DNA of 64,000 nt from assembly GCA_015491905.1 (NCBI GenBank), contig WGGC01000169.1:1-64000 (forward strand), read 5' to 3'. This DNA is from Bacteroidales bacterium (GTDB lineage Bacteria; Bacteroidota; Bacteroidia; Bacteroidales; F082). The position numbers were made by a program, and so were the translations under genes. The notes under the pieces were generated by a model, which was not told where the DNA came from, did not search any database, and worked only from the letters and a program-made list of their open reading frames with translations. Positions 32,190 to 34,848 of the stretch are shown here, in pieces (position 1 is the stretch's first letter; every line of letters begins with the position of its first letter).

Positions 32190-32197
32190 TATCTTTG
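32190..32197 (+). promoter_or_regulatory. Candidate -7 promoter element for the lysC leader transcript
   Basis: TATCTTTG matches the Bacteroidota consensus TAnnTTTG, 14 nt before the leader ATG; no clear -33 element. Confidence 0.5.
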
Positions 32198-32211
32198 TCT
32201 CAATTCAAGTA

Positions 32212-32280
32212 ATGATAAAAATGATAAAAAATATTAAACATATAAAACATAGTAAACCGAGCATATTACGCGACCGGTAA
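32212..32280 (+). CDS. Candidate attenuator leader peptide MIKMIKNIKHIKHSKPSILRDR
   Basis: ATG ATA AAA ATG ATA AAA AAT ATT AAA CAT ATA AAA CAT AGT AAA CCG AGC ATA TTA CGC GAC CGG TAA; 5 Lys and 5 Ile in 22 aa, directly before a terminator and lysC. Confidence 0.75.
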   Translation: MIKMIKNIKHIKHSKPSILRDR

Positions 32281-32323
32281 TAAATGTTATTTTTATAAAC
32301 TATCATAAAAAATAAACCCGGTC
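32272..32323 (+). promoter_or_regulatory. Candidate antiterminator hairpin of the lysC attenuator
   Basis: GACCGG (32272..32277, inside leader codons) is complementary to CCGGTC (32318..32323, 5' arm of the terminator); an inner helix GTTATTTTTAT/ATaAAAAATaAAC adds about 11 bp with two bulges. Confidence 0.6.
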
Positions 32324-32345
32324 AAAAACTTGACCGGGTTTTTTT
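32314..32345 (+). terminator. Intrinsic terminator in the lysC leader (attenuator)
   Basis: 12-bp perfect stem aaacccggtcaa/ttgaccgggttt, 4-nt loop aaac, seven-T tract; 24 nt before the lysC ATG. Confidence 0.9.
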
Positions 32346-32368
32346 ATGCTTAATTCAATCAAAACAAA

Positions 32369-33682
32369 ATGAAGGTTTTAAAATTTGGAGGTACCTCGTT
32401 AGGAAATTCCGAAAGAATTAAAAATGCAGTTGAAATTGTATTACAAGAAAGTAAAGCATTTGTTGTCTTGTCAGCAATGAGTGGTACTACAAACCGGCTT
32501 ATTGATATAAGTGATCATGTATTAAAAAATAATAAGCAAAAAGCACTTAAGTCTGCTTACAAACTTAGAAATCAATATCATTCTATTGCCGCAGATTTAC
32601 TGAAAGAGCCTGAAAAAGCAATAGAGCAGATTAATAAATACTTTGCAATTTTAGAAAATCAAATCCAAGTATCGCCAAAACCATATACAGAAAAGCATAT
32701 AGTTTCATTTGGCGAACTTCTTTCTACAAATTTATTCTATCAGTATTTAAAACAAAACAACATCAAAAGCACGCTTTTAAATGCTACTGAGTTGATTCGT
32801 CTGAACAGTAAAAATGAACCGGAAGTTGAAGATATTAAAAGCAAATTAGAAAATAAGATACAGCTATATAATGAATCAAGAATATTTATTACTCAAGGAT
32901 TTATATGCAGTGATATAGAAGGAAACATTTCTAATCTTGGCCGGGGAGGCAGTGATTATTCAGCTTCATTATTTGGAGCTGCCCTTAATGCAGATGAAAT
33001 TCAAATATGGACTGATATTGATGGTGTACAAAATAATGACCCAAGGATTATTGATAGCACACAACCCATTAGAAAATTGCTGTTTGATGAAGCGGCAGAA
33101 CTGGCATATTTTGGAGCAAAAATTCTTCATCCCTCATGTGTTTTACCGGCTAAAGAAAACAATATTCCTGTTTTATTAAAAAACACTCTTCATCCAGACG
33201 ACCCAGGCACATCCATAAGTAAGAAAACAGAAGGAACAGGTTTTAAAGCAGTAGCTGCAAGAGATAATATTACAGCTATACGCATTAAATCGAGCCGTAT
33301 GTTACTGGCTTATGGCTTTTTAAGAAAAGTTTTTGAGGTTTTTGAAAAATACGAAACTCCAATTGATATGATTACAACATCTGAAGTAGCAGTATCATTA
33401 ACCATTGATAATGAAATACATTTAAGCAAAATTATAGCTGAATTACAGACATACGGCACTGTATCAGTTAACAATAATAAAACAATTGTTGGAATTGTAG
33501 GAAATATAATGGCTGAAGAACCGGGGCATGCGGAAAAACTTTTTAGCGCCCTGGCAGACATTCCAATCAGAATGATTTCTTATGGAGCCAGTGCCTACAA
33601 TATGTCCATATTAATTAATACTGAAGATAAAAAACGTACCCTTCAAGCATTAAACGATAACTTATTTAATAGAAGAAAATGA
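32369..33682 (+). CDS. lysC: Aspartate kinase, monofunctional with C-terminal ACT domains
   Basis: MKVLKFGGTSLGNSERIKNA, SAMSGTTNRLIDI, GRGGSDYSASLFGAALNADEIQIWTDIDGV. Confidence 0.95.
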   Translation: MKVLKFGGTSLGNSERIKNAVEIVLQESKAFVVLSAMSGTTNRLIDISDHVLKNNKQKALKSAYKLRNQYHSIAADLLKEPEKAIEQINKYFAILENQIQVSPKPYTEKHIVSFGELLSTNLFYQYLKQNNIKSTLLNATELIRLNSKNEPEVEDIKSKLENKIQLYNESRIFITQGFICSDIEGNISNLGRGGSDYSASLFGAALNADEIQIWTDIDGVQNNDPRIIDSTQPIRKLLFDEAAELAYFGAKILHPSCVLPAKENNIPVLLKNTLHPDDPGTSISKKTEGTGFKAVAARDNITAIRIKSSRMLLAYGFLRKVFEVFEKYETPIDMITTSEVAVSLTIDNEIHLSKIIAELQTYGTVSVNNNKTIVGIVGNIMAEEPGHAEKLFSALADIPIRMISYGASAYNMSILINTEDKKRTLQALNDNLFNRRK

Positions 33683-34848
33683 TACCAAAAAAACTTATAG
33701 AACATATTAAATCTGCAAAAACGCCATTGTACTTTTACAATATGCAATTGCTTAGCCAAACTTTAGAACAGTTAAAAACGGCATCTTCCAAATACGGATA
33801 TCACATACATTATGCTTTAAAAGCAAATTTTAATTCTAAAATATTAAAAGAAATTAGCAGAATTGGATTGGGTGCAGACTGTGTAAGTGGAAATGAAATT
33901 GAAAAAGCACTGGAAAATGGTTTTCCGGCTGAGAAGATAGTTTTTGCCGGTGTTGGGAAAACCAATGATGAAATTTTATTGGCATTAAAAAATAACATTC
34001 AAGCTTTTAATTGTGAATCTTATCAGGAAATAATTATTATAAATGACCTGGCAAAAAAAACAGGCAGAAAAGCAAAAATATATTTGCGGTTAAACCCTGA
34101 TATTATAGCGGACACGCATAAAAATATCACAACCGGAAAGGCAGAGAATAAATTTGGCCTGCAGCCTTCCGAAACAGAGAAGTTTCTTCAAAACAGAGAT
34201 AATTTAAAAAACATTGAAGTAGAAGGATTACATTTCCACGTTGGATCACAAATCAGTGATATGAATGTTTTTAAAAACTTATGTTTTAAAGTAAACAAAT
34301 TACAGAATGATTTTTATAAAAAAGGGTTAAATATAAAAAATCTAAATATGGGCGGAGGTTTGGGAGTTGATTATTTAAATCCTAAAGAAAATGCCATCCC
34401 TGACTTTCAAAAGTATTTCGATACTTTTCATAATCACCTTAACCTTAAAGCAAACCAGCAGGTTCATTTTGAACTTGGAAGATCCATTGTGGCACAGATG
34501 GGAACTTTGTTCTCCAAGGTTTTATATATTAAAGAAGGTTTTCAAAATCCATTTGTAATTATTGATGCATCTATGACCGACTTATTGCGACCGGCACTAT
34601 ATGAAGCATTTCATAAAATTGAAAATCTTTCTAACACAAACAGACCAAAAATCAAAAGTATTTATGATGTTGCCGGTCCCGTATGTGAATCTTCAGATGT
34701 TTTTGCCCGAAATATTTCATTAGGAGACACACGAAGAGGAGATATTATTGCGATTTATTCAACAGGTGCCTACGGACAAGTTATGTCCTCTTCTTATAAT
34801 CTTCGGCCTGCAGCATCAACATTATACAGCGATGAATATTTATTTTAA
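33679..34848 (+). CDS. lysA: Diaminopimelate decarboxylase
   Basis: PLYFYNMQLLSQTLEQL, YALKANFNSKILKEI, GLHFHVGSQISD, GGGLGVDY, DVAGPVCESSDVFA; ATGA overlap with lysC. Confidence 0.95.
   Translation: MIPKKLIEHIKSAKTPLYFYNMQLLSQTLEQLKTASSKYGYHIHYALKANFNSKILKEISRIGLGADCVSGNEIEKALENGFPAEKIVFAGVGKTNDEILLALKNNIQAFNCESYQEIIIINDLAKKTGRKAKIYLRLNPDIIADTHKNITTGKAENKFGLQPSETEKFLQNRDNLKNIEVEGLHFHVGSQISDMNVFKNLCFKVNKLQNDFYKKGLNIKNLNMGGGLGVDYLNPKENAIPDFQKYFDTFHNHLNLKANQQVHFELGRSIVAQMGTLFSKVLYIKEGFQNPFVIIDASMTDLLRPALYEAFHKIENLSNTNRPKIKSIYDVAGPVCESSDVFARNISLGDTRRGDIIAIYSTGAYGQVMSSSYNLRPAASTLYSDEYLF

Follow-up and report, generated by a model that had tools for sequence, protein, structure and literature searches.

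The locus lies in a 64,000-nt stretch of Bacteroidales DNA (the window), where NCBIfam identifies the neighbouring genes as tsaD, an aspartate kinase gene, lysA and a gene for a FakA/DegV-type protein. The aspartate kinase gene, lysC (32369..33682, plus strand), is the putative controlled gene. Its product scores above the cut-off for the aspartate kinase subfamily TIGR00657; it is closest to the lysine-sensitive type, and against the NCBIfam lysine-sensitive aspartokinase 3 it reaches 436.8 bits, slightly below the curated cut-off of 455. lysC overlaps by 4 nt with lysA (diaminopimelate decarboxylase; 33679..34848, plus strand; NCBIfam TIGR01048, above cut-off), and the two are presumably on one transcript. 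The tsaD gene ends 66 nt before a short open reading frame (ORF) that precedes lysC.

The region 5′ of lysC contains a promoter element, a leader ORF and a terminator, all on the plus strand. The promoter element, TATCTTTG (32190..32197), is of the Bacteroidota −7 type (TAnnTTTG) and can be read directly from the sequence. From the known Bacteroidota promoter consensus, transcription is predicted to start at about 32202-32205, a few bases 5′ of the leader ATG. A gap of 14 nt separates the −7 box from the leader ORF of 22 codons (MIKMIKNIKHIKHSKPSILRDR-stop, 32212..32280), in which Lys occupies codons 3, 6, 9, 12 and 15 and Ile codons 2, 5, 8, 11 and 18. The control region (32236..32256) consists of Lys codons 9, 12 and 15 (32236-32238, 32245-32247 and 32254-32256), 36, 27 and 18 nt 5′ of the antiterminator segment. 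That segment is GACCGG (32272-32277), which together with ATGTT (32284-32288) makes up segment 2 (32272..32288). GACCGG is complementary to CCGGTC (32318-32323) in segment 3, the terminator 5′ arm AAACCCGGTCAA (32314..32325), and has a second copy at 32332-32337 in segment 4 (32330..32345), which comprises the terminator 3′ arm TTGACCGGGTTT (32330-32341) and a T tract. CCGGTC thus has two alternative partners, segment 2 or segment 4, and the pairings are mutually exclusive. The terminator, AAACCCGGTCAA-AAAC-TTGACCGGGTTT at 32314-32341, forms 12 perfect pairs; its T run ends at 32345, and lysC starts 23 nt 3′ of the terminator end. Segment 1 (32246..32258), made up of AACAT (32246-32250) and ACCG (32255-32258), provides the 5′ side of a protector (1:2) helix that is closed by ATGTT. 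An initial annotation of this DNA, made from the sequence alone, had placed the leader ORF, the terminator and the GACCGG/CCGGTC/GACCGG triad exactly to the base, as re-reading confirmed, and the NCBIfam assignments of aspartate kinase and LysA bear out its statement that the genes 3′ of the leader make lysine.

In the window by itself, the leader region folds more stably than shuffled sequences (z = -3.97) and the complementarity between leader and terminator arm exceeds that of shuffles (P = 0.003). The Lys content of the leader is not above that of dinucleotide shuffles (4 Lys per 10-codon window versus 3.3 expected, p = 0.36). The case rests on comparison because Lys richness alone is unremarkable in such AT-rich DNA; it is the conserved placement of Lys across the genus, and not Lys content, that puts the window leader above chance.

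The genus is represented by 11 genomes besides that of the window, eight of them with a full lysC, which with the window gives nine loci. In all nine the same module (TAnnTTTG promoter, short leader ORF, antiterminator segment and terminator) stands directly 5′ of lysC, and it is kept where LysC itself is only 56-67% identical to the window protein. The promoter box is found 7-20 nt 5′ of the leader start in 9/9 genus leaders and at the same distance in L027, L280, L290, L302, L329 and L142, loci from the wider survey described below. The other eight genus leader peptides are MSITMKNKKHMKRSEHRNR, VNFTDKNMKHMKRSGTHDR (GTG start), MRNIIKNKKQLKRSETTDRQQLFYMD, MLNTIKNRKQLKRMCDHDRRLLI, MMNTIKQNKQLKRRGNYGRRLLL, MMNTIKQNKQLKRRGNHDRRLLL, MMNEMMNSIKQNKQLKREGDFDRRLLF and MLSMLYTKHNKQLKRMGNHDRRLLF. 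Lys codons occur at exactly −18, −27 and −36 nt from the antiterminator in every one of the nine, with exchanges between AAA and AAG, and changes within the KxxKxxKR core fall mostly at codon position 3 (19 versus 7 and 4 at the other positions).

The RNA pairings are conserved as well. Across the nine genus sequences the antiterminator core is paired in 54/54 cells, including G-C to A-U and G-U changes, and the helix extends to nine pairs in G004 and G005. Leader segments fit their own 5′ arm better than arms swapped between genomes (P = 0.007), and the same test applied to the terminator arms gives P = 0.067; at one locus, L008, the antiterminator is weak and its own pairing scores below the swapped ones. 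Column shuffles, which have little power with nine sequences, gave no significant covariation for the antiterminator core alone (150/500), the value for the extended antiterminator helix being 104/500. The terminator is paired in 96.7% of cells, with compensatory changes. RNAalifold, to which no model was supplied, returned the terminator and a second helix, which connects segment 2 and the bases immediately after it with the stretch of Lys codons. This is the 1:2 protector helix, with 90.1% of cells paired (2/500 shuffles as high) and three pairs changed on both sides, and the same hairpin is contained in the window's own minimum-energy fold; it is weaker than the 2:3 and 3:4 helices, and its columns are also coding. 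The trp-type set of 1:2, 2:3 and 3:4 is therefore complete. The initial annotation had named conservation in close relatives and compensatory changes in the triad as the things to look for: Lys leader, triad and terminator are kept in 9/9 genus members and co-varying changes in the triad are present. Its architecture was correct for segments 2, 3 and 4, and lacked the segment-1 protector helix, which comparison added. If a ribosome is placed in a stall at the last Lys codon and the RNA it does not cover is folded thermodynamically, the predicted probability of the antiterminator is 1.00 in 9/9; once the ribosome has moved beyond segment 2, the terminator is predicted to form, at -16.8 to -27.5 kcal/mol across the genus.

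The lysC leader is very likely a real regulatory element, and we propose with considerable confidence that it controls lysC-lysA by ribosome-mediated transcription attenuation in response to charged tRNA-Lys. From the arrangement of codons and helices we infer translation of the leader, stalling, termination and a response to lysine, in the following way. When lysyl-tRNA is plentiful, the ribosome would pass the Lys codons and cover or disrupt segment 2 (GACCGG) near the stop, segments 3 and 4 would form the terminator, and transcription would end about 23 nt 5′ of lysC. When lysyl-tRNA is scarce, the ribosome would stall when its A site reaches Lys codon 9, 12 or 15, and its front edge would stop a little before segment 2; pairing of 2 with 3 would then preclude the terminator and lysC-lysA would be transcribed. 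The front edge of a ribosome usually lies at about +13, so that stalling with the last Lys codon, at −18 nt, in the A site should leave segment 2 free by a few bases. With no translation at all, the 1:2 helix could mask segment 2 and favour termination. In one relative (L004) the leader stop is 21 nt past segment 2, and a terminating ribosome there may therefore not cover segment 2 fully.

Beyond the genus, a survey covered 351 distinct lysC upstream regions, and in 69 of them a terminator lies no more than 140 nt from lysC. In this set of 69, only Lys shows strong enrichment relative to shuffles (p<=0.05 in 19/69, followed by Val in 7/69), although the 19 are not independent cases, since close relatives enter the count one by one. 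Among the carriers are ten Hymenobacter-type loci, together with five further loci of the Hymenobacteraceae. Peptides of this family, for instance GKKGKCAKRVKRTRS-stop, have their last Lys five codons before the stop and TGACCG at the stop, and are followed by a terminator of the type GCGCCGGTC...GACCGGCGC; in the leaders checked, the last Lys codon lies 16 nt 5′ of GACCG. The GACCG/CGGTC pairing is conserved in Hymenobacter, but not beyond chance for GC-rich sequence. In the Hymenobacter loci L136-L144 the sequence CGGGTG-AAACA-CACCCG is conserved as a hairpin whose loop holds the last Lys codon and whose stem shows G-C to A-U changes; this is likely the 1:2 helix of that lineage. Another locus of the family, L361, showed no leader on inspection.

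In Marinifilaceae, fifteen loci have YKKHYKRNKRS-like peptides. An unbroken antiterminator was sought there and not found; TGTAAAGCT and AGCCTGCA could pair with a bulge. At these loci (L330-L344) a strongly conserved AATGTRAAGCT occurs about 35 nt after the last Lys codon, between leader and terminator, and could be a candidate side of such a bulged antiterminator. Further lysine leaders occur in other Bacteroidales families (L027, L290, L280), with L302 and L329 as weaker candidates. No such leader was present in the other Marinifilaceae or in most Bacteroides, Prevotella, Parabacteroides and Chitinophaga lysC loci surveyed, and the majority of other lysC loci of the order and class are without one. 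On a tree of LysC the leader appears in four separate groups when L361 is counted as a carrier; as that locus has no leader, at least one change has to be added to the four. This scatter would fit either repeated gain or an old origin with losses.

The three-codon spacing of Lys, a pattern noticed post hoc, is in excess when one leader per lineage is counted (16 pairs versus 7.3, P = 0.0002), and spacings of 1, 2, 4 and 5 show no excess in the same set. Our guess is that it avoids runs of AAA, which promote slippage. In two other Bacteroidales families, four loci (L258, L274, L314 and L322) have a terminator of the type GGCCTGCAGG...CCTGCAGGCC shortly 5′ of lysC, preceded by Met-rich ORFs (e.g. 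MQTICMKQMVITMKKQTHKQAVDALIKSA); these are possibly leaders of another specificity, perhaps for Met.

The other aspartokinase genes of the genus provide a control for specificity. thrA, which encodes a bifunctional aspartokinase-homoserine dehydrogenase, has a Thr-codon leader 5′ of it in 9/9 loci examined (e.g. TTTTTSTP, TSTTTTTP and TTSITTTP; MGHTTSFMTPLGV in the window genome). The window-genome leader is found in L381 (G000:C145:6898-7400) and those of eight relatives in L382-L389, with a TAnnTTTA-type promoter box 5′. The threonine leader gave no Rfam match in the three loci scanned. These sequences suggest a threonine attenuator before thrA, and likely a set of such switches in these genomes. 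No such leader was found for the third aspartokinase-like gene (L390-L396; G000:C198 and relatives), which lies directly 3′ of a conserved ORF that we take to resemble class 3 fructose-bisphosphatase. Lys codons before lysC and Thr codons before thrA are as codon-based attenuation predicts.

The same comparison bears on a TnaC-like arrest peptide, in which the nascent chain, inside the ribosome tunnel, would respond to free lysine or some other ligand in place of slow Lys decoding. Such a peptide could account for the pattern that recurs across lineages, a hydrophobic residue or Asn followed by Lys and usually Arg, with the Lys three codons apart. However, the remaining peptide varies in length and sequence, three Lys codons at a fixed distance from an RNA segment are a requirement of codon-based stalling, and the Thr runs before thrA in the same genomes point to codon identity; we consider an arrest peptide improbable.

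Lysine genes are usually tied to an L-box riboswitch or a T-box, and the Lys codons, having a 9-nt period, form A-rich repeats that could be read as RNA. A leader RNA that binds a metabolite or protein (a riboswitch, or a target for an RNA-binding protein that recognises the 9-nt repeats), in which the ORF would play no part, nevertheless appears very improbable. The AAA/AAG swaps keep the amino acid and variation concentrates at third positions, the leader is short, and no Rfam family matches it at curated cut-offs in the window or its relatives. The lysine riboswitch (RF00168) gave no match at the gathering threshold, nor at E up to 1 over the window leader, in agreement with the doubt about an L-box expressed at the outset, and at that same E limit the window showed no T-box. 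Thr_leader (RF00506; 22.9 bits, cut-off 55) and Leu_leader (RF00512; 23.7 bits, cut-off 50) remain below threshold in the window.

That the hairpin is the terminator of tsaD only, and the Lys-rich ORF a chance product of AT-rich DNA, is suggested by the short distance to tsaD and by a Lys content within the range of shuffles. The module is kept at L002, L003 and L006-L009, whose upstream flanks yielded no tsaD, and in L002 and L003 the gene that does lie upstream has a terminator of its own, farther 5′. lysA is 3′ of lysC in L002, L003, L005 and the Hymenobacteraceae and Marinifilaceae loci, and was not found downstream of lysC in L004 and L006-L009. The leader is therefore tied to lysC, and since the module accompanies lysC even where a different gene lies upstream, and the Lys codons keep both their positions and their spacing from the antiterminator, with changes concentrated at third codon positions, a tsaD terminator is largely refuted by the relatives and was rejected as most improbable. 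Dual control by Lys and Ile, proposed in the initial annotation on the five Ile codons of the window leader, is hardly tenable and Ile was ruled out as a second control residue, the Ile counts across the nine leaders being 5, 1, 0, 2, 2, 1, 1, 1 and 0 (0-2 in the eight others) versus three invariant Lys positions; the rest of that interpretation is supported by the genus comparison.

To our knowledge, no leader-peptide attenuator has been established for lysine. We see an even chance that lysC in Bacteroidota is recurrently controlled by lysine-specific ribosome-mediated attenuation, which several lineages would have gained or retained separately, with no L-box or lysine T-box seen at these loci and with a distinct design of one Lys per third codon, perhaps because AAA runs slip. 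Amino-acid control in the phylum is poorly described, and the lysC leader offers a clear, testable regulator for its lysine branch. The fixed 18-nt distance from codon to antiterminator and the every-third-codon spacing form a natural data set for attenuator geometry.

Bacteroid-trp is a trp attenuator. The lysC leader, which has no Rfam match, belongs to the same phylum as Bacteroid-trp RNA (RF01692), listed as a Bacteroidetes motif (PMC2864571). Two further papers report clues to leader-peptide attenuation before amino-acid operons of Flavobacterium psychrophilum (PMC9723704) and, for B. thetaiotaomicron, leader-like sORFs (PMC7366714); the terms 'lysC' and 'lysine' are absent from the main text of both. 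In Actinobacteria, a survey detected no conserved regulatory RNA structure for lysine, and it named the L-box as the lysine element elsewhere (PMC1262725). The initial annotation knew of no characterised lysC example of this design in Bacteroidota, and our literature search, partial in coverage and so compatible with an earlier report, found no published lysine leader-peptide attenuator.

Like the L-box and the lysine T-box, the lysC leader is predicted to combine a leader RNA with a terminator in the control of lysC or other lysine genes; unlike them, it would rely on a translated ORF and not on a ligand aptamer or a tRNA-binding stem. Its working principle agrees with the trp/his/thr leader logic first proposed for it. 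As in the enterobacterial trp, his, thr and leu attenuators, a short ORF with many codons for the operon's end product precedes exclusive 1:2/2:3/3:4 pairings, with an intrinsic terminator shortly 5′ of the first structural gene. It differs from the enterobacterial systems in using lysine instead of Thr, Leu, His or Trp, in placing its control codons at every third position and not in a run, and in having few bases between promoter and leader start. The lysC leader thus appears to follow a known attenuation principle with a lysine specificity that is apparently new.
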